Shown: positions 4,882 to 32,524 of the stretch, in pieces | Numbering within the stretch: the first letter of the stretch is position 1 | Layout: every line of letters starts with the position of its first letter | IMG/VR virus record: IMGVR_UViG_3300027522_000002 | Coordinates: 1-53,808 of that record | Reading direction: 5' to 3' (one strand) | Source of the DNA: a virus | Length of the DNA: 53,808 nt | Notes under the pieces: generated by a model | What the model was told of the DNA's origin: nothing | Databases searched by the model: none | What the model saw: only the letters and a program-made list of their open reading frames with translations | Translations under genes and position numbers: made by a program

Positions 4882-7362
4882 TTAGCCTCGCTGCAATTTC
4901 TGTCGCTGGATGTCGATGCGCTCACGATTAACCTCGTTCCGATTATCCGCAATTTCTTCTTGGCTTTCGATTCTCGCAGAGTCAGTGGTTGCACGTTGCT
5001 GCATTTTCTGGAGCTCAACCAACATCTGACCCTGATCTTCTTCCGTCTTACGAAGTAGATCTTTTTCTTTAATTTCCAACTCTTGCATACGAATCTGCAC
5101 CAGAGGATCGTCCATAGGGCTGTTGCCTTGAGGCATAAGCTGCGGCATCACCTCAGTCATTAACTGCTCCATCTGCATGGATATCAGTTTTTCCATCTGG
5201 GCTGGGTCTTGCATATCCTGCTGAACTTGCGCCATTTGTGCTTGAGCAGCCTGTGGATCAAGCTGTCCCGCGCTTACAGAGGCTTGCGCCTGCTTCATGA
5301 TCTCGGAAATCTCTGTCTCAACCATCATACGGGCCTTCTGAGATAGGTGCTCCATGACATGAGCATAAAACGTACCCATGACTGTCGGAGACGTCGACAC
5401 CAAGGGAGTCTTCATAAACATCAAGTGAATGCGGATGTGGGCATCGTGATCCTGATCTGGAAATGTTGTCAGAATCTCGCCCATTAACGCACGGGCGTTC
5501 TCGATAGCTGGATCCAAAGGCTTGGGTTGAGGAGGAGGGGGCAACACCTCATCAATATTCTGGACCTCAAGTGCTTGGTACATACGTTTGTACGCAGCGT
5601 GGAGGTTATGCATTTCCGGATTAGACTGCGCCAATTGCAACTGCGTTTGTGCCAAGGTTACGCGCTGGGCCATCGAGAATATGTTGGGGTCACTGACCGG
5701 AACAACATCAACACGATTGTCAAAGTCCGAAGCCATGATCTGACGTTCGCCGCCTTGAACATCGTAAGGGTATTCTTGGGGCAGATTGTCTCTGAATATC
5801 CTAGCTAACACTCGGAACTCTTGCTTCTGAGCATAGTGCAGACGTTTGTGTATAGCGGACATAACTTTCATGCCGCGCTCTAGGAGAGCCACAGTGGTCC
5901 CTACAGGGGCTTGAGAGTTAGCATCGCCTGTCTGTTGGTCAGCAAGCTGTACGAAGCGTCTACCGCCCTCTATGAGCGTCCCAAGTAGGTTTGCGAGAGT
6001 TCCCGAAGGCTCTTTGTACGGAAGCGGGATAATTGCATCCCGTATGTTTCCACCAGGAGCGTCAATATCTCGCCATTCTCCGGGCTGTAAGGGCTCATCG
6101 TCATTCCGAACCCTTACACCCCGAGCCTTGAAGCCAGCGGGGAGGTTCGCCAGCGTTCCGGCATCGATCAACTGGCGAAGAATACTTGTAGCCGCACGAC
6201 CCAATCCACCAATCATGTGAATTAAACCAAAGCCATAGAATCCCAAACCAGGCATAAACTTGTAGTGAACAAAGTACTGCTGCTTCTTGGCAAGAGGACT
6301 GTCTTCTTCAAAGTTTCTGCGAATAGACAGAATGTGTCCCGAGCCTTCATCAACAGAAACAATATACGGGAGAGCAATTCCAGTAGGCTCTCCGTCCGGA
6401 GACATATCCTCGAAACCCTCGATATCTAAATCGACGTGCATTTCTAAAATAGTGTATATATCGTCCATGTATGTTTTGGACGTGCCTTGAATCTCGTCAA
6501 CTTTTTGACGGACCTCATCAGCATCGCCCTCAAAGGTGCTTAACTCTACATCACGGTACATCCCCGCAATCTGCAACTTGCGTATGGCATTAGCATCCAT
6601 TTTAAGAACGTGGGTAACCCTAGAAGCGGTAGCCAAGTCCGATGCTGCGTAGGGTACAACCAAGTCTTGCGCAGGAATAAACTGAGCGACAGCCCGTTGT
6701 TTAGCCTCATCGTAGTAAACTTTTTTGAAACATGATCCCGAAAGTGGTAAATAAAACAGAAGCTGATCCATATCCGGATCAAACTCTTCCATGACTTCCA
6801 TGATCTGGTAGTTCATGTAGTTCTTAACTCGAGTAGCCTGCTCTTCTCTCTCGGCATCCTGTAGACCAAGTACCTGTGTCTTGACAGGGCCACCGGACGG
6901 TAGGAGCTCCTTGTAAGCCTGTGCTTGGAATTGGGTAACACTCTCCGCTATAAGCGGGTGAGTGACGCCTGACGCGCCTGCAAACGGCTGTGTGCGCTCC
7001 ATGTACTTAATGCCAAGTTGATCCAAGCCTTTAGTGTAAGCTTCCTCCCACTCAGACCTAGACTCCATGTCATCTTCGAAAGACTGACGAAGCTCAGAAG
7101 AAAGCTCTCCTAAGTAACCATCCTCGAGATGATCCGCCAAGTTAACGGAGTGTTCTAGGGGCTCTTCCATGACTTCCCCGTTAAGAGAGTCCAGAAGAGA
7201 TTGGATAACTGCGCCACCTTGGCCGTCTTCTATAACCTCGGCCCCGCCTTCAAACGCCTCGGGCTCCATTACATCTATATTAACAGACGCCTCGCTGGGC
7301 ATCATGTCTTCCATTGTAATTCCAGCATCTACTGGGCCCATTGGGCGAGGTGGCAAAGCCAT
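4882..7362 (-). CDS. portal protein
   Basis: An 826-residue protein. The N-terminal 80 residues are acidic. A core with PFAGASGVTHPLIAESVTQ (about 125) and a long Gln/Met-rich helical C-terminus (about 690-826) fits the large portals of podoviruses. The portal forms the ring at the capsid vertex through which DNA is packed and ejected and to which the terminase docks. It follows the large terminase directly (TAATG overlap at 7362), the classic terL-portal order. Confidence 0.85.
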   Translation of the reverse strand: MALPPRPMGPVDAGITMEDMMPSEASVNIDVMEPEAFEGGAEVIEDGQGGAVIQSLLDSLNGEVMEEPLEHSVNLADHLEDGYLGELSSELRQSFEDDMESRSEWEEAYTKGLDQLGIKYMERTQPFAGASGVTHPLIAESVTQFQAQAYKELLPSGGPVKTQVLGLQDAEREEQATRVKNYMNYQIMEVMEEFDPDMDQLLFYLPLSGSCFKKVYYDEAKQRAVAQFIPAQDLVVPYAASDLATASRVTHVLKMDANAIRKLQIAGMYRDVELSTFEGDADEVRQKVDEIQGTSKTYMDDIYTILEMHVDLDIEGFEDMSPDGEPTGIALPYIVSVDEGSGHILSIRRNFEEDSPLAKKQQYFVHYKFMPGLGFYGFGLIHMIGGLGRAATSILRQLIDAGTLANLPAGFKARGVRVRNDDEPLQPGEWRDIDAPGGNIRDAIIPLPYKEPSGTLANLLGTLIEGGRRFVQLADQQTGDANSQAPVGTTVALLERGMKVMSAIHKRLHYAQKQEFRVLARIFRDNLPQEYPYDVQGGERQIMASDFDNRVDVVPVSDPNIFSMAQRVTLAQTQLQLAQSNPEMHNLHAAYKRMYQALEVQNIDEVLPPPPQPKPLDPAIENARALMGEILTTFPDQDHDAHIRIHLMFMKTPLVSTSPTVMGTFYAHVMEHLSQKARMMVETEISEIMKQAQASVSAGQLDPQAAQAQMAQVQQDMQDPAQMEKLISMQMEQLMTEVMPQLMPQGNSPMDDPLVQIRMQELEIKEKDLLRKTEEDQGQMLVELQKMQQRATTDSARIESQEEIADNRNEVNRERIDIQRQKLQRG

Positions 7363-23823: not shown

Positions 23824-24078
23824 CTAGGCTTCTCTTAATTTGAGGAGCCTTTTTTTCTTCTTGCCTTCGATCTGATAGGGTTTTTCCTTTGAGTACCCCC
23901 TGATCTGCGTGACGGTTGAGTAGGATTTGTTCATGCCTCTAAGCAGCGCACGGGCAACATCTTCCTCGAGTCCGGTCTGCTCGGCAAGAACCTTGGTCCC
24001 TGTCTCGAGAGTCCGGAGCCCTTTCTTAAAGTCCACCATCGTTTCTATTATTTCTTCGTGGGCTTCAAACTTAGCCAT
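23824..24078 (-). CDS. small helical protein translated with the SNF2-type helicase
   Basis: An 84-residue protein starting MAKFEAHEEIIETMVDF. The central block KVLAEQTGLEEDVARALLRGMNKS is HTH-like, and the end is Lys/Arg-rich. It overlaps the helicase gene by 31 bases and has a GAGGCACGGG ribosome site. Its last codons lie inside the plus-strand terminator at 23826-23856. No known family was recognised. Confidence 0.65.
   Translation of the reverse strand: MAKFEAHEEIIETMVDFKKGLRTLETGTKVLAEQTGLEEDVARALLRGMNKSYSTVTQIRGYSKEKPYQIEGKKKKRLLKLREA
23826..23856 (+). terminator. intrinsic terminator ending early module II
   Basis: A 9-bp stem (AGGCTTCTC with GAGGAGCCT, one G-T pair) with a TTAATTT loop is followed by seven T. 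It stops plus-strand transcription before it runs into the minus-strand helicase genes, and it lies within the 3' end of the minus-strand 84-residue gene. Confidence 0.85.
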
Positions 24079-25517
24079 TCCCGTGCCTCTTCTCCGAGGA
24101 CCTTGGCCCCGATACTGATCTTGTTTCTCAGAGACTCAACGATCTTCTCGTCTATCGTGCCTTCAGTAATCAGATCGATGTACGTCACGTTGTGCTTCTG
24201 TCCGATCCGGTGGGCTCGATCCTCTGATTGGATGCGTGTCTCCAAGTTGTAGTCGTTGGCATAGTACACCACAAGATTGGCCTCGGTCAACGTCAGGCCA
24301 TAGCCAGCGGTAGCAGGGTTGCCTACAAAAAATCGGAGAGGATGGTTTGGATTCTGGAAGTTAAGAACTGCCGCCGCCCGATCATCGTCTGATGTATCTC
24401 CAAAGTATGCCACCGCAGTGCCTTTGCCAAATTTCTTGTTCAACATTTCTGTGATCTGCTTGATGTCGTATCGGAACCGAGACCAGATGATAGCCTTCCC
24501 CTGGTGTTCTTCCATGATCTCATCGAGCGCATCCATTCGGCGCGAGGAAAAGTATTTCATTGTGCCATCATCAGTCTTGAGGTGACCGGACATAACCTGC
24601 TGAAGCCGAAGCATCTGTGTTATGATAGCTGGAGCCGACACCATTTCACCATCATCGAATAGGATCAGGGCCTGCTGCTGTAGTTTCTCGTACATCTTTA
24701 GCTGTTCGTCGGTCAGCGTAACGTACCGAGCCGTGTATATTTTGTCAGGAAGATCGAGGCAGTCTTTCTTGAGCACTCGATAAGCAAACATGTCGATCTT
24801 TTTTGTAAGCTCATCGATGTTCTTGTATCCTACGATCTGTTGAAAAGCTTGAGCACCCATAGACCTGCGTTGTGTGACAGCGTACCTTCCTTGAAAAGCA
24901 TAGTATGATTCGTATCCGAGCAGACCTTTCCGCATGAACTCAAACTGCGAGTAGATATCCATTGGACTTTTTGTAACCGGAGAACCTGTCAACAGTCTTC
25001 TGTAGTTAAAACCGTCAGCGATTTTCATTAGGTGTTTACTGCGCTTGGCTTTGTGATTCTTTATCGTTGTTGATTCGTCTATTGCAATTAACCCATAGGG
25101 TCCGAGCGCACGACTTAACCACTGACCCGCTGCATTTCCTTTGACCGAGGAGAAAGCTTCGACGTTCATTACAAAGATTGTTAGACCAGCGAAGGGTTGC
25201 TTTACAGACTGCACTTCTGCCTGTTGTTTCTTTGTGCCGCCAGACACCCATCGAATCACACGGTGCGGGACATCGTCGGACATATGCTCGGGGATTTCTT
25301 TGGCTACCCAGTTCCTATAGACGCCCTTGGGTGCGATGATTAAAGCGAAGTTAATTTTTCCTGCTAGGAACAACAAGCCGATGTTATCGATAAGAACTTT
25401 AGACTTCCCAGTTCCCATCTCCATGAAGTAACCGAACTCTTGCCGATCCCAACCTTGTTCCAGCGCAGTCACCTGGTGATCAAATGGTTTTAATTTATAT
25501 TTGTAGTTGACAGTCAT
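24048..25517 (-). CDS. SNF2-family DNA helicase
   Basis: A 489-residue protein. Motif I MGTGKS (GTGKS at 35-39), motif II DES at 147-149 in LIAIDEST, motif III LLTGSP near 175-180, and motif VI RAHRIGQ near 440 define an SF2 SNF2-like helicase or translocase. The start at 25517 follows GGAG 7 bases upstream; a GTG at 25520 is possible. It has its own strand and probably its own promoter between early and replication genes. Phage enzymes of this type are thought to help replication or recombination. Confidence 0.9.
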   Translation of the reverse strand: MTVNYKYKLKPFDHQVTALEQGWDRQEFGYFMEMGTGKSKVLIDNIGLLFLAGKINFALIIAPKGVYRNWVAKEIPEHMSDDVPHRVIRWVSGGTKKQQAEVQSVKQPFAGLTIFVMNVEAFSSVKGNAAGQWLSRALGPYGLIAIDESTTIKNHKAKRSKHLMKIADGFNYRRLLTGSPVTKSPMDIYSQFEFMRKGLLGYESYYAFQGRYAVTQRRSMGAQAFQQIVGYKNIDELTKKIDMFAYRVLKKDCLDLPDKIYTARYVTLTDEQLKMYEKLQQQALILFDDGEMVSAPAIITQMLRLQQVMSGHLKTDDGTMKYFSSRRMDALDEIMEEHQGKAIIWSRFRYDIKQITEMLNKKFGKGTAVAYFGDTSDDDRAAAVLNFQNPNHPLRFFVGNPATAGYGLTLTEANLVVYYANDYNLETRIQSEDRAHRIGQKHNVTYIDLITEGTIDEKIVESLRNKISIGAKVLGEEAREWLSLKPTKK

Positions 25518-25536
25518 CACATATCTCCACTATTGT
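25507..25536 (+). promoter_or_regulatory. promoter of the replication operon, TTGACA - 18 bp - TATTGT
   Basis: TTGACA at 25507-25512 matches the consensus -35, and TATTGT lies at 25531-25536 with an 18-bp gap. It reads into the gene at 25594 and overlaps the start of the divergent helicase gene, so the two units may compete. Confidence 0.55.
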
Positions 25537-25593: not shown

Positions 25594-26154
25594 ATGAGCG
25601 AACTATTTGAAGACTTTTTCGACGAGGCTTACGCGGTAGGCAAAGTCGATACTGGGGTAACTAAAAACCTTAGTCATCTGGTGCGGACGTTACGAAACGT
25701 TGAGTCCCAGATCGAGGATGCGGAGTCCCATCTTAAAGCACTCAAGCAAGAGAAGCACAAACTGTCTGTCGAAGGTATCCCTGCCTTGATGGATGAGATG
25801 GGCGTCGAGCGTTTGGATGTAGACGGTATGACCGTCGAGCGTAAAATGATTGTCGCTGCGTCAATCCCTGCGGCGAACAAAGATCAAGCTTTTGATTGGC
25901 TCCGGTCCAATGGTTTAGATGATATCATCAAGAACGATATCACTGTGTCCTTTGGTAAGGGCGAGGACAACTTAGCTGGGGATGCTGTCGGTATCCTGCG
26001 TGATCGAGGTTTCGATCCTAAGACTAAGACACACGTCCACCCATCAACACTGAAAGCATTCGTTAAAGAACGGATCACTGATGGAAAACCAATCGATCTC
26101 GATATGTTCGGGGCATTCATTTCAAACACCGCAGTTATCAAGAGGAAAGTATAA
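25594..26154 (+). CDS. replication-operon protein of unknown function
   Basis: A 186-residue protein. Residues 25-60 form a coiled coil (NVESQIEDAESHLKALKQEK). The remainder is mixed, with RLDVDGMTVERK and the C-terminal block HPSTLKAFVKERI then LDMFGAFISNTAVIKRK. This form is common as a conserved phage protein beside SSB-like genes. Its place as the first gene, overlapping the SSB-like start (TAATG), suggests a partner in DNA replication. Confidence 0.75.
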   Translation: MSELFEDFFDEAYAVGKVDTGVTKNLSHLVRTLRNVESQIEDAESHLKALKQEKHKLSVEGIPALMDEMGVERLDVDGMTVERKMIVAASIPAANKDQAFDWLRSNGLDDIIKNDITVSFGKGEDNLAGDAVGILRDRGFDPKTKTHVHPSTLKAFVKERITDGKPIDLDMFGAFISNTAVIKRKV

Positions 26155-26948
26155 TGGCTAACGCAGTAGCAACTAAGAAAGAAACCGCAATCTCAACCGA
26201 TATCATGGACGATATCTTAGAGTTCGCGGGTGAAGGTGCAACCTTTGACAGTTCCGAAATGCAGATCCCGTTCATCCGTATCTTGCAAGCGATGTCTCCC
26301 CAGCTAAAGAAGCGGGAAGCAGAGTACATCGAGGGTGCGGAGCAAGGTGATATGTTCAACACAGTCACTGGTGACAAGTTCAAAGGTGAGGATGGTATGA
26401 TTGTACTGCCCTGCTACCAGACAGTGAAGTACCTTGAGTTCGTGCCCCGTGATTTGGGTGGCGGGTTCCAAGGAGAGATCAGCCCGACTGATCCTGTTCT
26501 CCAGAAGACAACTCGTAATGGCTCCAAGGAGATACTTCCCAACGGTCACGAACTGGTTAAGTCGGACCAACACTTCTGCTTGGTGATCGATGCAGACGGT
26601 ATCACACAGCCTGTTGTGATTGACATGAAGTCAACACAGCTAAAGGTTAGCCGCCGTTGGAAGACAAAGATTGCAATGCAAAAGGTCAAGCACCCCAAGA
26701 CAGGTGCCATGGTTCTACCGCCGCTGTTCGCAACCCAGTGGAAATTCTCCACTGTTGAGGAGAGCAATGACCAAGGCTCATGGTTCAACTACGCTATTGA
26801 GAAGATTGGTTTGGTCAATGACCGTGACCTTCTTCAAGAGGCTCTCACCTTCCGCACCAGTGTTGCTGCGGGAGAACTAAAAGCTGCTAAAGATCCAGAA
26901 CATCAGCAGAAACGTGCTGAAGAGGATGCTGATTCCATCCCGTTCTAA
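26154..26948 (+). CDS. single-stranded DNA-binding-like protein
   Basis: A 264-residue protein. The core is beta-rich (EGAEQGDMFNTVTGDK, VVIDMKSTQLKVSRRWKTK) and the C-terminus is acidic, ending EEDADSIPF. That end is the hallmark tip of bacterial SSB proteins (DDDIPF), which docks replication partners. The core is not the OB fold of E. coli SSB as far as I can see; a phage-specific SSB family is likely. It is followed by an intrinsic terminator, then the primase, so it should be made in excess over downstream proteins. Confidence 0.75.
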   Translation: MANAVATKKETAISTDIMDDILEFAGEGATFDSSEMQIPFIRILQAMSPQLKKREAEYIEGAEQGDMFNTVTGDKFKGEDGMIVLPCYQTVKYLEFVPRDLGGGFQGEISPTDPVLQKTTRNGSKEILPNGHELVKSDQHFCLVIDADGITQPVVIDMKSTQLKVSRRWKTKIAMQKVKHPKTGAMVLPPLFATQWKFSTVEESNDQGSWFNYAIEKIGLVNDRDLLQEALTFRTSVAAGELKAAKDPEHQQKRAEEDADSIPF

Positions 26949-26956
26949 GTAGCTTT

Positions 26957-27002
26957 GGAGAAGGTTAACAAAAGTATCTTGATTGTTAACCTTCTCCTTT
27001 TT
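26957..27002 (+). terminator. intrinsic terminator between SSB-like and primase genes
   Basis: A perfect 14-bp stem (GGAGAAGGTTAACA with TGTTAACCTTCTCC), a 13-base loop and TTTTT lie within the replication operon. Partial stopping here would set the ratio of SSB-like protein to replisome enzymes. Confidence 0.9.
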
Positions 27003-27016
27003 CCAAGGAGACACGC

Positions 27017-28549
27017 ATGACACAGGCAGAAAGACTGCTTGCCTCTTTTGCTGGGGCTCATAACGCACACGGTACAACAACCGTTGGTCGCGTTGGCCGC
27101 AATGGAAAGGCAGAGTCAAAGAGTATGATTGTTCGGGAGCCTCTGACACAGGAGCTAGTTCAATCCCACATAGATGGGAAGAACGGCGTTGGGGCAATAC
27201 CGATCAACGACCAGAACAAATGCCAGTTCGGGGCATTGGATATTGATGTATACGATTTGAACCAAGATGAACTACAGGCTAAGATTAAAAAGTTGAAGCT
27301 TCCTTTAATCCACTGCCGATCTAAATCAGGTGGGGCTCACCTCTACCTGTTCATGAAGGATTGGGAGCAAGCTGCGGACATAAGAGATTACCTGACAGAA
27401 ATGTCGATAGCCTTGGGTTACAGTGGTTGCGAAGTATTTCCGAAGCAAGACACAATTATTGCAGAGCGTGGAGACGTGGGTAACTTTATTAACATGCCCT
27501 ACTTCAACGCCGAACTTCCACAGAGATACGCCTTCAACAAGAAGGCCGAGGCAATGGAACTGGATGAGTTCCTAGACGCGGTGAAAAAGGCTAGGGTTTC
27601 TTTGTCAGACCTCGAGGGTCTTCGCCTGTCCAAGCCTCGAAAGCATTTCACAGATGGGCCTCCCTGCCTTGAGCACTTGTTCTCGGACGGACCTGTCGAG
27701 GAGTTCCGCAACAACACTCTGTTTAACGTGGCTAGATACTGCAAGATGAAGAGCCCTGACCAGTGGCAACAAGAGTTCGAAGGGTACAACCGTACACTTG
27801 CAAGCCCTCCCCTTCCATCCAGTGAGATCGTAAACCTCACCAAGCAGCATGAGAAAAAAGAGTATCTCTACACCTGTAAGGATGAGCCGATGCGGGGATA
27901 CTGTGACCCTGCAGTATGTGCCACCAGGAAATTTGGTATAGGCAACGATGCGCCAGATGCTGTTTCGGTTGGTGGTCTTACAATTATGTTGTCCGAGCCA
28001 CGCCTGTTTTTCATGGACGTGGATGGAGACAGAATACAGTTGAGCACTGAGCAACTACAGAATCAAACGCTGTTTCAACGTGCTTGCATGGATCAAAAGA
28101 ACATGATGCCTCCGCCGATGAAACCTCAGAAGTGGCAGCAACTGGTCAACAGTTTGATGCAGGGTGCGACCTTCTTAGAAGTGCCGCCGGAACTGACAAC
28201 CGCAGGACAGTTCAAAGATCACTTGCGTAGTTACTGCACAAGCCATGTACGAGCCATGTCCCCAGAGGAAATGGATATGGGAAAGCCATGGACGGATGCA
28301 GGTACAACGAAGTTTAAGTTAGATGGTTTGTTAGAGTATCTTCATCACCGTAGATTCTCGGGCCCGACCAGAGGACAACTCATGCAGATGATTCGAGACT
28401 TGGGGGGAGACACTGGTAAGCAGAACATTGTTAAGCGCAGCCCGAAAGGCGAAGTCAAATCAACTCTTAGGTGTTGGATAATTCCTGCCTTTGACGAAGG
28501 CGAAGTTGAACTACCAATTAAGGAGATATCAAATGACATCCCGTTCTAA
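27017..28549 (+). CDS. archaeo-eukaryotic-type primase
   Basis: A 510-residue protein. ALDIDVY with Asp75/Asp77, RSKSGGAHLY at 101-110 and GNFINMPYF at 155-163 form the AEP primase core (metal site, nucleotide site). Cys217, Cys287, Cys296 and Cys301 could bind an iron-sulfur cluster or zinc in a PriL-like lobe. The C-terminus ends EISNDIPF, an SSB-like tip. The gene starts after AAGGAGAC and is in the same operon as helicase and polymerase. It would make RNA or DNA primers for the phage polymerase. Confidence 0.85.
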   Translation: MTQAERLLASFAGAHNAHGTTTVGRVGRNGKAESKSMIVREPLTQELVQSHIDGKNGVGAIPINDQNKCQFGALDIDVYDLNQDELQAKIKKLKLPLIHCRSKSGGAHLYLFMKDWEQAADIRDYLTEMSIALGYSGCEVFPKQDTIIAERGDVGNFINMPYFNAELPQRYAFNKKAEAMELDEFLDAVKKARVSLSDLEGLRLSKPRKHFTDGPPCLEHLFSDGPVEEFRNNTLFNVARYCKMKSPDQWQQEFEGYNRTLASPPLPSSEIVNLTKQHEKKEYLYTCKDEPMRGYCDPAVCATRKFGIGNDAPDAVSVGGLTIMLSEPRLFFMDVDGDRIQLSTEQLQNQTLFQRACMDQKNMMPPPMKPQKWQQLVNSLMQGATFLEVPPELTTAGQFKDHLRSYCTSHVRAMSPEEMDMGKPWTDAGTTKFKLDGLLEYLHHRRFSGPTRGQLMQMIRDLGGDTGKQNIVKRSPKGEVKSTLRCWIIPAFDEGEVELPIKEISNDIPF

Positions 28550-28757
28550 TAAGCTGATGAGGGTATCCGAAGTAGCCGATCTGCTTGGGGTATCTAGGTC
28601 CTATGTCTACAAGCTGGCGCAAACAGATCCAAACTTCCCGCAGCCTATTGTGCTGGGCAGTGAGCACAGCAAACGATCCGCCAGCCGCTGGGTTCTACTG
28701 GAGATCGAGGATTGGGTTAACAACAGACCAAGAGGAAAAGATTATGATTCCGAATAG
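28533..28757 (+). CDS. AlpA/excisionase-like HTH protein
   Basis: A 74-residue protein starting MTSRSNKLMRVSEVADLLGV. The block RVSEVADLLGVSRSYVYKLAQ followed by FPQPIVLG and the C-terminal EIEDWVNNR is the AlpA-type MerR-like HTH. Such proteins act as small regulators or excisionases; no integrase is present, so regulation is more likely. The perfect ribosome site AAGGAGATATC lies inside the primase end, and the gene overlaps both neighbours. Confidence 0.8.
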   Translation: MTSRSNKLMRVSEVADLLGVSRSYVYKLAQTDPNFPQPIVLGSEHSKRSASRWVLLEIEDWVNNRPRGKDYDSE

Positions 28758-30273
28758 TAAGCTCTTGTTGGGTCCCCCTGGATGCGGGAAAACATTTCGT
28801 TTGATACAGGAAATACAGAACGCTCTTGACTCAGGAGCCCACCCCTCAAGGATTGGGGTGATCTCATTCACTCGAAAAGCAATCGAGGAAATGATCTCAA
28901 GGTCCTGTGCCAAGTTTAATCTGGAGCCCAAAGATTTTCCTTACATGAAAACATCTCATGCGTTCGGGTTCCATGGGCTGGGACTCAAGACTACGGACAT
29001 CATGAGCCCCGAAGACTATGCCAACATAGGCCGTGAGATTGGGCTAACGTTCGAGGGCAAAGACTACACGTCATTGGATGGTGGGGTCACACTGCCTACA
29101 GTGGGCGGGTCAGGAGCACGGTACTTGCAGCTAGACAACAGGGCTCGGCTCCGGAAGATCGAGATCGAACAGGAGTATAACGAGGAAGCGGATTGGAGTT
29201 TGTTTTTTGCCAAGCTGAAACAACTATCCGAGCAGTTGGTCGAGTACAAAAGATCAACAGACAAGTACGACTTTGTTGATATGATAGAACAGTACATCGA
29301 GCACGGCGAGACTCCGAATCTGGACTACCTGTTTATTGATGAGGCCCAAGACTTCACCCCGCTGCAGTGGGAAATGGCTCGTAAGATTGCGTCGAGCTCC
29401 GAGAATGTTTGGGTTGCTGGAGACGATGATCAAGCTATCCACCGATGGACAGGCGTGGATGTTGCGGAGTTCAACAACTGTTCGACTAACATCGAGGTGC
29501 TGAGTCAGTCGTTTCGGATCCCTAAGTCTGTCCACCGTCTTGCGCTGTCTGTATCAAAAAGAATTTCGGGACGCCATGAAAAGACGTTCACCGCTCGGGA
29601 GGAAGAGGGCAAGGTCGAATACATAAACTATCTTTCAGAGGCCCCGCTGCACGAAGGATCATGGACGTTGATGGCGCGGACCAACGGGTACGTCTCAGAG
29701 ATGGCGAATTATCTGCGAGGGCAGGGCTACAAGTACTCTCGCAATGGTAGGTCCAGCTTGTCAGAGATCTTGGTGCAAAACCTTTTGACTTGGGATGAGT
29801 TGTGCAAGGATGGATCAGTTCCTTTGCCTGACGTTAAGCGTTTGTACGACTCAGTAAAGAAACAGGGAGTGGACGCTGTTGTCCGAAGGGGCGCGATGCA
29901 ACTGCTTGACGCTCTACCTGCAGATACTACGCTGTCAATGAAAGAACTGGTAAAGGACTACGGTCTGTTGAAGGACTCGGCTTACGGCGCATACGAGATA
30001 CTAAACGTGCCGAGCTCCGAGCAAGAGTACATCGATGCTATCTTCCGAAGAGGAGAGAATCTTTTATCTAAACCTCGGATCAAAGTCTCTACGTTCCATG
30101 CTATGAAGGGCGGGGAAGATGATAACTGTATGGTCTGGACTGCATCGACCAAGGCGTGTGACCGCAGTAAATTTCCTGACGATGAGCATCGAGCTTTTTA
30201 TGTCGCAGTAACTAGGGCGAGGCATAACTTATACATCCTGCAGTCCAGCAACAAATATAGGTACACGTTATGA
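28744..30273 (+). CDS. UvrD/Rep-like superfamily 1 DNA helicase
   Basis: A 509-residue protein. Walker A GPPGCGKT at 10-17, motif Ia VISFTRKAIEEM near 39-50, DEAQD at 199-203, GDDDQAIHRW at 226-235 and SQSFRIP at 254-260 are present, with late motifs STFHAMKG and FYVAVTRARHNL near the end. This is a compact SF1A helicase (E. coli Rep/UvrD are about 670-720). The start at 28744 after AAGAGGAAAAG is chosen; a longer frame lacks a ribosome site. It unwinds DNA for the phage polymerase. Confidence 0.9.
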   Translation: MIPNSKLLLGPPGCGKTFRLIQEIQNALDSGAHPSRIGVISFTRKAIEEMISRSCAKFNLEPKDFPYMKTSHAFGFHGLGLKTTDIMSPEDYANIGREIGLTFEGKDYTSLDGGVTLPTVGGSGARYLQLDNRARLRKIEIEQEYNEEADWSLFFAKLKQLSEQLVEYKRSTDKYDFVDMIEQYIEHGETPNLDYLFIDEAQDFTPLQWEMARKIASSSENVWVAGDDDQAIHRWTGVDVAEFNNCSTNIEVLSQSFRIPKSVHRLALSVSKRISGRHEKTFTAREEEGKVEYINYLSEAPLHEGSWTLMARTNGYVSEMANYLRGQGYKYSRNGRSSLSEILVQNLLTWDELCKDGSVPLPDVKRLYDSVKKQGVDAVVRRGAMQLLDALPADTTLSMKELVKDYGLLKDSAYGAYEILNVPSSEQEYIDAIFRRGENLLSKPRIKVSTFHAMKGGEDDNCMVWTASTKACDRSKFPDDEHRAFYVAVTRARHNLYILQSSNKYRYTL

Positions 30274-30593
30274 ACAGAGATGAAGTCTTAGACTCCGCAA
30301 AAGAGTTGATCAATGGGCAGAGGGCCAAGGATTATGGCGATGCATACGAGAACTTCTCGCGTATTGCTGATGGATGGAATATAATTGTAAGAGAATCACA
30401 GCGCACCCATGGGTTCATTACCCCACAACACGTTGCGCTAATGATGGATTGGATGAAGTCTGCCCGTCTGTTGAATGGCATCGACCATGAGGACTCTTGG
30501 ATCGACAAGTGCGGGTACAGTGCATTGGGTTCAGATTTCTCTGAGCGTGAGGCTAAGATCCTTGAGAGGCTAGGAAAGGTGTTAGCTAAATGA
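30270..30593 (+). CDS. conserved phage protein (DUF6378-like)
   Basis: A 107-residue protein with the block LINGQRAKDYGDAYENFSRIADGW, then TPQHVALMMDWMKSARL and DSWIDKCGYSALG. This pattern is common in phages beside DNA metabolism genes (named DUF6378 as I recall). It is helical; a MazG-like nucleotide role has been suggested for look-alikes but is not established. It is coupled by ATGA overlaps to helicase and polymerase. Confidence 0.75.
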   Translation: MNRDEVLDSAKELINGQRAKDYGDAYENFSRIADGWNIIVRESQRTHGFITPQHVALMMDWMKSARLLNGIDHEDSWIDKCGYSALGSDFSEREAKILERLGKVLAK

Positions 30594-32524
30594 GTCAGAA
30601 GTTTTTGTTTACAGATGATAGTGGTGATTCCAGTGATCTCAATTACCAACTCAAGGGTGAGATGAACGTGATCGAAAGCGATTGGAACATCCCTACGGAG
30701 TTCCCTGACCTTACTGCGTACAAAGAGGTTGCTGTCGATCTGGAAACAAAGGACCCCCACCTGACTACGCTCGGCCCTGGATGGGCTACGAACAACGGAC
30801 ATATCATTGGGATTGCTGTCGCTGCAGGAGAATACAAAGGGTATTTCCCCATGCGGCATGAGAACGGTCACAACATGGACCCGAGGATCACGCTCAAGTG
30901 GATCAAGAAGCAGCTATCTGTCCCTGATATGGACGTGATTATGCACAACGCAACCTATGATGCGGGTTGGTTGAGGGCAGAAGGTGTGGAGATCAAAGGC
31001 CGAATCATTGACACGATGGTTACTGGTGCTTTGGTGGATGAGAACCGCTGGTCCTTTGGCCTCGATGCTATGGCCCGTGACTACGCTGGGGTACGGAAGA
31101 ACGAGCAGTTGCTCAAGGCGGCGGCGGCGGACTTTGGCGTGAACCCTAAGTCGGAGATGTACAAGCTTCCCCCTAAGTTTGTTGGCGCATATGCCGAACA
31201 GGATGCAGTTGCCACGCTCAAGCTTTGGACCGCTCTAAAAGTACGACTCGATCAAGACGAGCTCTGGGACGTTTGGAACATGGAGACAGGGTTGATTCGT
31301 TGTATTCTGGACATGCGTACCAAGGGTGTGCGGGTAGATCTTGATCGAGCGGACCAAAACAAAAAGGCTTTGCAGTCCCAAAGCAAACTTCTTAGGGGGC
31401 TACTGGAGAAAGAAGCTGGTATGGAAGTGGACATCTGGGCGTCTGCGTCTATCCAAAAGATGTTTGATAAGTTGAAGTTGGAATATCCCCGCACAGAGAA
31501 AGGGGCTCCATCGTTTACCAAGAACTTTCTCAATGATCACCCCGAGAAGATTGCCCAGATTCTGGTTAAGCTGCGGGAGTTTGACAAAGCGGACAGCACA
31601 TTTATTGATAGCATTCTTCGCCATGAACACAACGGCAGGATCCACACCGAGTTGCACTCTACGCGAAGAGATGCAGGGGGAACTGTGACGGGTAGATTTT
31701 CATCGTCTAACCCCAATCTTCAGCAGCTTCCGGCGCGTGACCCTGATATCAAGCGGTACATTCGAGGCATCTTTGTACCAGAGGAGGGCCAGAGGTGGGG
31801 ATCGTTTGACTACTCGAGCCAAGAGCCAAGGCTCCTCGTTCACTTCGCCTCGATGATACCGTCCACTATCCGTCATCCAATCGTGGATCAGATCGTGGAA
31901 GAGTTTCACACAGGTGACGTTGATCTTCACCAGATGGTTGCGGACCTTGCGAACATCACTAGGAAGCAAGCGAAGACCGTGAACCTCGGCATTATGTACG
32001 GTATGGGTGTGGCTAAACTGGCCGACCAGCTTGGCATTTCAAAGGAAGACGCTAAGGATTTAATCGGTAGACACCACTCTAAGGTTCCTTTCGTTAAGGG
32101 ATTGGCAGACCTAGCCAGTAAGCAGGGCGAGAAGAACGGGCAGATACGCACTGTAATGGGCCGTAAGTGCCGATTCCATCTTTGGGAGCCTGTCACCTAC
32201 GGAGTAGGCAAGCCACTGCCCTACGAGGAAGCTATGAAGGAGTACGGGGGCCCTGGAGGTAAAGGCATACGCCGAGCGTTCACATACAAGGCTCTGAACA
32301 AGCTTATCCAAGGCTCCGCTGCCGATCAGACTAAGAAGGCAATGCTTGATTGCTACAATGAGGGGCTCACCCCTATGCTAACGGTGCATGACGAGTTATG
32401 TTTTAGTATCGAAAGTGACGAACAAGCTTCGCGGATTAAGGAGATCATGGAGACAGGAATGCCTCTTGCTATCCCATCCAAAATTGACGTTGATATCAAA
32501 GAACACTGGGGAGACATCGAATGA
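30590..32524 (+). CDS. family A DNA polymerase with 3'-5' exonuclease
   Basis: A 644-residue protein. The exonuclease has VDLET (Asp50, Glu52), HNATYD (Asp124) and YAEQD (Asp205). The polymerase has motif A FDYSSQEPR (Asp407), motif B RKQAKTVNLGIMYG at 458-471 and motif C VHDE at 599-602. No 5'-3' exonuclease is present, as in other phage PolA. The residue at E. coli 762 is Leu466. This is the replicative polymerase of the phage. A start at residue 25 (MNVIES) is possible. Confidence 0.95.
   Translation: MSQKFLFTDDSGDSSDLNYQLKGEMNVIESDWNIPTEFPDLTAYKEVAVDLETKDPHLTTLGPGWATNNGHIIGIAVAAGEYKGYFPMRHENGHNMDPRITLKWIKKQLSVPDMDVIMHNATYDAGWLRAEGVEIKGRIIDTMVTGALVDENRWSFGLDAMARDYAGVRKNEQLLKAAAADFGVNPKSEMYKLPPKFVGAYAEQDAVATLKLWTALKVRLDQDELWDVWNMETGLIRCILDMRTKGVRVDLDRADQNKKALQSQSKLLRGLLEKEAGMEVDIWASASIQKMFDKLKLEYPRTEKGAPSFTKNFLNDHPEKIAQILVKLREFDKADSTFIDSILRHEHNGRIHTELHSTRRDAGGTVTGRFSSSNPNLQQLPARDPDIKRYIRGIFVPEEGQRWGSFDYSSQEPRLLVHFASMIPSTIRHPIVDQIVEEFHTGDVDLHQMVADLANITRKQAKTVNLGIMYGMGVAKLADQLGISKEDAKDLIGRHHSKVPFVKGLADLASKQGEKNGQIRTVMGRKCRFHLWEPVTYGVGKPLPYEEAMKEYGGPGGKGIRRAFTYKALNKLIQGSAADQTKKAMLDCYNEGLTPMLTVHDELCFSIESDEQASRIKEIMETGMPLAIPSKIDVDIKEHWGDIE

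Follow-up and report, generated by a model that had tools for sequence, protein, structure and literature searches.

The C-terminal tip of the E. coli single-stranded DNA-binding protein (SSB) is DDDIPF (PMC5872125), and the helicase-binding domain of DnaG is a receptor of the SSB tip (PMC6783573). Even for E. coli, there is debate on how a new primer is handed from the primase to the polymerase when the DNA is covered by SSB, with competition for SSB tips under discussion (PMC6783573). In phage T7, the SSB and the priming enzyme each finish with an acidic tail whose last residue is F (gp2.5 ...DEDGDF and gp4 ...SNDTDF, respectively). The gp2.5 tail makes use of gp5. The same protein is contacted by gp4, whose acidic C-terminal tail binds basic patches of gp5 (PMC12593628). 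Tails of the T7 type are similar in Syn5 and VP4.

We analysed a viral DNA of 53,808 nucleotides (IMG/VR record IMGVR_UViG_3300027522_000002, positions 1 to 53,808, taken as a whole and called the window hereafter), in which an SSB-like protein of another family and a primase end in closely similar tips. The features concerned are the following:

26154-26948, plus strand: SSB-like protein of 264 aa (PF23977, Pam3_Gp34, E 5.7e-66; phrog_2402)
26931-26948, plus strand: SSB-like tip DSIPF and stop codon, as read in the sequence; the tip is kept in homologues
27017-28549, plus strand: AEP (TOTE-like) primase of 510 aa (PF22548, E 5e-14; phrog_21866 'primase', E 3.6e-92)
28532-28549, plus strand: primase tip NDIPF and stop codon, as read in the sequence; P509 and F510 are nearly invariant in the homologue alignment
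28533-28757, plus strand: AlpA-like HTH gene with its ATG at 28533 (PF05930, E 6e-9), given for context and outside the tip system

The SSB-like and primase ORFs terminate with ...AEEDADSIPF and ...KEISNDIPF, respectively. As the initial annotation had pointed out, both tips end on identical bases: the 12-base sequence ATCCCGTTCTAA is present in exactly two copies in the window, at 26937 and 28538, with 0.00 copies expected in shuffles of the window. The window has 141 ORFs of 80 aa or more, and a -PF ending was observed only for these two proteins (2/141).

The SSB-like protein is a member of the Pam3 phage gp34-like family (PF23977, 223 bits for a cut-off of 27), its sole Pfam match up to E 0.1, and no match to the bacterial SSB domain PF00436 was found in the window record. 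Its AlphaFold2 model (pLDDT 82) shows a beta-rich core, while residues 251-263 have pLDDT values below 50, as expected for a disordered tail; an OB-fold core of approximately residues 36-240 followed by a disordered C-terminal tail is thus predicted. The best match of the model among solved structures was phiC31 gp3 (Z 8.1), and the gp32 cores of T4 (Z 6.7) and RB69 (Z 6.5) were matched over 154-159 residues with Foldseek E values not below 0.001. Further structural matches were BRCA2 OB folds and many SSBs. The model supports an OB-fold SSB identity, although such Z values are no proof of kinship. A search of solved structures with the single sequence gave nothing useful. phiC31 gp3 is a recombination directionality factor, and the gp3 and SSB-like families may have a common origin in an OB-fold SSB; neither phiC31 gp3 nor the phiC31 primase has a tip. 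The Pam3_Gp34 family was matched in 504 phage records, and public records label its genes inconsistently as 'structural protein', 'ATP-binding protein' or 'primase' (L168, L157 and L160).

The primase belongs to the AEP-TOTE family, as judged by its PF22548 score (52.8 bits for a cut-off of 27) and by the presence of the catalytic DxD and histidine; D75, D77 and H108 are invariant in the homologue alignment. Its Pfam matches up to E 0.1 are limited to AEP-TOTE and a sub-cut-off DUF6994. The closest solved relative of the catalytic domain is the CAPP Prim-Pol 7nqe (Foldseek E 9e-10), and a search of solved structures with the single sequence returned weak CAPP matches only. With 35.8 bits for a cut-off of 200 in NCBIfam NF040561 (PrimPol_Msp), the protein falls outside the CAPP/PrimPol_Msp equivalog. 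Confidence in the primase model (pLDDT 83) is low for the last 20 residues, and the models suggest flexible tails bearing the tips in both proteins.

A scan of viral contigs with the window primase retrieved 77 homologues of 100 to 32% identity, 75 of them with an intact 3' end. All 75 end in -xPF, preceded in most by acidic residues, and both the residues preceding the tip and the downstream arrangement vary among them. The -xPF tip is likewise kept in SSB-like homologues. The initial annotation had singled out a lack of conservation in primase homologues as evidence against a role of the tip; the primase tip is instead kept across homologues of 100% to 32% identity. The pattern of an acidic residue followed by xPF matches 293 of the 3211 ORFs in the relatives' loci, 150 primases and 143 SSB-like proteins, and no other ORF. 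The terminal residue is hydrophobic in 98% of SSB-like proteins and 95% of primases, and D or E occupies position -4 in 52% and 61%, respectively. These ends have the sequence features of the SSB-Ct class, in which acidic residues precede a hydrophobic C-terminus, most often PF. When viral sequences were scanned with the Kokobel2 primase, no hit was obtained. The SSB tip is kept with a primase devoid of tip in Nanhaivirus R26L and Pan1 and in pelagiphage HTVC023P (L161, L162 and L164), as well as in L478 and Vibrio phage VP2. Since some lineages keep the SSB tip alone, the primase tip is dispensable or replaceable in these lineages, a point against the shared pocket proposed below. In the primases of R26L, Pan1 and HTVC023P, the tip was either lost or never present.

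Beyond the -PF form, the tips of relatives take several other forms, and these recur in both proteins. Pairs (SSB/primase) include DIV/NIV in the pelagiphage HTVC027P clade, NY/NY (L333), SF/SF (L364, L397 and L399), VF/VF (L384), DIM/DIM (L392), EY/EY (L419), TY/MY (L436), TL/EL (L420-L422), IPV/EPI (L363), PY/PY (L455 and L468), SII/DII (L470) and EF/EF (Kokobel2 and Bhz9). Acid-less forms, GPAPF/RSPF among them, also occur in pairs, as in the freshwater DSL-LC04 clade (APF/SPF). In L163 (MW202510, 5206-5955), the tips IPFA (SSB-like) and PPFV (primase) are each one residue longer; this record annotates a minus-strand ORF at 5206-5955, although the SSB-like gene of that region is on the plus strand.

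This co-variation was evaluated on 111 loci, thinned to less than 80% primase identity. In 85 of the 111 loci, both proteins share their last residue (shuffles: mean 59.5, sd 2.6, max 71); they share their last two residues in 69 loci (shuffles: mean 36.7, sd 2.7, max 48). When the set was reduced to 30 lineages of at most 45% identity, 12 had identical last two residues for 2.4 expected, with a maximum of 9 in 10000 shuffles. In a position control, match z values were 9.9, 11.0 and 4.4 at positions -1, -2 and -3, and ranged from -1.6 to 2.4 at positions -4 to -12. Matching of the SSB and primase tips is local, being limited to the last three residues.

For a phylogenetic control, the primase tree was computed after removal of the last 25 residues. 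Twelve independent pairs differ in the SSB terminal F; the primase differs in the same way in 7.0 of them, in the opposite way in 0.04, and shows no difference in 4.9. The corresponding sign test gave a median p of 0.016 with all 111 rows, about 0.06 on the primase tree when four doubtful rows were dropped, and 0.07-0.13 on the SSB tree. Opposite changes averaged 0-0.6 in every version of the terminal-F test. This tree-controlled test is therefore modest and underpowered, with a constant direction. The same net score calculated over about 2476 core columns of six proteins reached a maximum of 3.7.

The replication block of the window contains four further genes of interest:

24048-25520, minus strand: SNF2-type helicase of the same replication block (PF00176, E 1e-19)
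25594-26154, plus strand: Pam3 gp33-like protein (DUF7307; PF23984, E 4e-29), a candidate accessory or partner protein without tip
28744-30273, plus strand: UvrD-like SF1 helicase (PF00580, E 4e-25), a candidate socket with a covariation lead at R435
30590-32524, plus strand: family A DNA polymerase (PolA; PF00476, E 2e-58), a candidate socket with basic residues near the T7 front basic patch

The gp33-like, UvrD, PolA, SNF2 and DUF6378 families, used as neighbour controls, showed neither PF ends nor matches of the last two residues. A shared tip as a general trait of the replication block was rejected on this basis, the five neighbour families being without tip.

Phages that use a primase of another family mostly still share a tip between the two proteins. 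With primases of the RepB_primase/DUF5906 type, the SSB-like protein and the primase end in KKTPF and KKDPF in Pseudomonas phage RaNi and in KPVF and KPPF in Bordetella phage FP1, respectively. With VapE-type primases, the corresponding ends are AEEF and GEDF in Pbunavirus SCUT-S1, AEEF and KDEF in Wifcevirus 4M-7, and AEQF and EGAF in Serratia phage Hera. By BLAST and HMM comparison, none of these five primases was significantly related to that of the window. In the RaNi, FP1, SCUT-S1 and 4M-7 records, only the SSB-like protein and the primase carry that ending among ORFs of at least 100 aa. Vibrio phage VP2 (L554) departs from this rule: its Pam3_Gp34-like protein ends in DEM and its primase in TEE, with no matching tip, and it additionally encodes a canonical SSB ending in DDDIPF.

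We infer that both tips probably dock in one pocket of a phage-encoded replication protein, the SSB and the primase holding or exchanging the same partner, for which the tails of T7 gp2.5 and gp4 on gp5 provide a precedent. The two proteins would carry interchangeable C-terminal docking tips, with a hydrophobic end (usually F after P) on a mostly acidic flexible tail, and a single phage-encoded pocket would accept both. SSB-coated DNA and the primase would hold the same partner, together or in turn, and this partner would thereby be brought to single-stranded DNA and then to the fresh primer, a scheme that would entail physical docking, competition between the tips and primer hand-off. A change in the pocket would force a change in both tips, and the tips would match lineage by lineage because one pocket reads both. 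Of the two roles that the initial annotation had suggested for the tips, sharing of one pocket receives strong although indirect support, since the tips co-change in their last three residues and primases of other families carry matching tips. The other, use of host SSB partners, gained no support as the main role.

According to this host-based explanation, the tips would bind the proteins that host SSB recruits (DnaG, RecQ/PriA-like helicases, chi, exonucleases), the primase mimicking host SSB. In its favour, the window and its close relatives have canonical DIPF-like tips near the E. coli SSB DDDIPF (PMC5872125), and host contact of the window's own DIPF tip is possible. However, the tips of relatives include DIV, II, DIM, PY, EF, TL and acid-less forms (APF/RSPF). 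In SAR11 single-cell genomes with a phage contig, the host SSB ends in DDEIPF (L455), DDDIPF (L468) and DDEIPF (L472), whereas the phage tips are PY/PY, PY/PY and PY/AF, respectively. With SAR11 host SSBs ending in DD(D/E)IPF and their phages in PY, the tips do not track host partners. Provided that the phage contigs come from the sorted cells, phage tips have departed from the host SSB form, which a phage-encoded socket would explain most simply. A host pocket would have kept the tips host-like, and it leaves the mutual match of the phage tips without reason; we therefore consider docking on host partners improbable. A match without any functional cause, resulting from shared ancestry, gene-end conversion or the constraint of an overlapping start codon, is scarcely credible. 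The two genes usually adjoin, and in the window the tip codons do overlap the next gene: over 17 bases (28533-28549), the end of the primase gene also provides the opening codons of the AlpA-like HTH gene, so that the NDIPF codons are dual-coding, and the Shine-Dalgarno-like AAGGAG of the latter (28520) encodes the KEI preceding the primase tip. Nevertheless, -xPF is kept in homologues with other downstream and overlap arrangements, and the tip as a by-product of gene overlap was rejected. Among 18 non-redundant loci whose SSB and primase agree in their last three residues, the same nine bases are found in only two. Codons differ in the other 16 of the 18 although the residues are identical, which places the signal in the protein and not in the DNA; gene conversion or a DNA-level repeat as source of the match was rejected. 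The restriction of matching to the last three residues, and the sharing of the tip by primases of other families whose genes are distant from that of the SSB, likewise argue against a match without function.

A pocket located on the SSB-like core itself is a more serious contender, if still an unlikely one. The protein's own tail would fold back on this core, as the tails of T7 gp2.5 and T4 gp32 have been proposed to do on their DNA-binding cores, and the primase tip would bind the same core, so that primase would be recruited to SSB-coated DNA or would clear SSB from the priming site. The co-change would then be explained without a third protein, and the SSB-like protein is present in every phage compared, whatever the type of polymerase or primase. 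SSB core columns T122, V87, F43 and P101 are among the higher scorers, yet the SSB core, with scores of at most 3.4, does not exceed the other proteins. A pocket on the core also fits poorly with the conservation of SSB tips in R26L, Pan1 and HTVC023P, where the primase is without tip.

For the single phage-encoded pocket that we favour, a socket was searched for by covariation of core columns with tip class (about 2476 columns); no column stands clear, and the UvrD and PolA leads are not significant. A UvrD-like helicase gene is present in 97 of the 111 loci and in 13 of 15 records checked, most of which correspond to loci where it had been missing. Position R435 of this helicase is R in 57 of the 73 F-tip phages vs 3 of the 24 others, other leads being Y367 and N313 (residue numbers for UvrD and PolA refer to trimmed sequences and shift with the alignment). 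The PolA leads are K507, K234, R552 and K26. K507, among the top PolA columns and not significant, aligns with K600 of T7 gp5, about ten residues past KWKRR 587-591, which we take to be the T7 front basic patch. Core columns of SNF2 and of the gp33-like protein gave nothing better. The gp33-like (DUF7307) gene is present in 104 of the 111 loci and immediately precedes the SSB-like gene in the window and in most named relatives; its product may be an SSB loader or mediator. L421 and L422 encode PolIII alpha and have no PolA match, yet show matched TL/EL tips; tip class may have changed there together with polymerase type. No single partner stands out, and among the socket candidates we prefer the SF1 (UvrD/Dda-like) helicase, followed by the DNA polymerase, then the SSB core, and lastly the gp33-like or SNF2 protein. 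The structural matches of the SSB-like model include the solved gp32-Dda helicase complex (8gme).

In these phages, evolution has exchanged the tips of two proteins in parallel many times, and since both proteins are needed together at primer hand-off, this offers a genetic handle on the step. The tip codes (PF, DIV, PY, EF) could provide a route to the missing partner by indicating who must match whom. They could also help to assign replication roles to phage proteins labelled 'hypothetical' or 'structural', such as those of the Pam3_Gp34 family.

Compared with known systems, the locus is T7-like in that the SSB and the priming enzyme of one phage share their tip. The proteins are different, Pfam matches up to E 0.1 giving no homology to gp2.5 and gp4: a Pam3_Gp34 SSB and a stand-alone AEP primase are used here, and the partner is represented by candidates only. 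Moreover, the tip is usually -PF instead of -DF, and changes jointly in both proteins to Y, V, M, L or I forms. With bacterial SSB-Ct (DDDIPF) it shares a terminal -IPF after acidic residues on a disordered tail, and thus the motif class. However, the bacterial primase receives the SSB tip whereas here the primase bears it, the phage SSB is not of PF00436, and many relatives have tips that depart from the bacterial form. The SSB-like core has a predicted fold reminiscent of the T4 gp32 core (Z 6.7 over 154 residues, a value below 8 being no proof of kinship). CAPP is the nearest solved relative of the primase catalytic domain, from which the window protein is set apart by its PrimPol_Msp score (35.8 for 200). 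In the open literature searched, we found no description of an AEP primase bearing a tip of the SSB type. T7-type shared tails and SSB-Ct docking are already known kinds; to our knowledge, and within that open literature, neither the matched co-evolution of such tips nor their occurrence on primases of other families has been described. The shared tip may reflect a general rule of phage replisomes, in which the SSB and any primase used share a co-evolving C-terminal tip, gained repeatedly (AEP-TOTE, VapE-type, RepB/DUF5906-type, T7 gp4) and serving as a replaceable docking code for one phage-encoded socket, insulated from the host SSB network.
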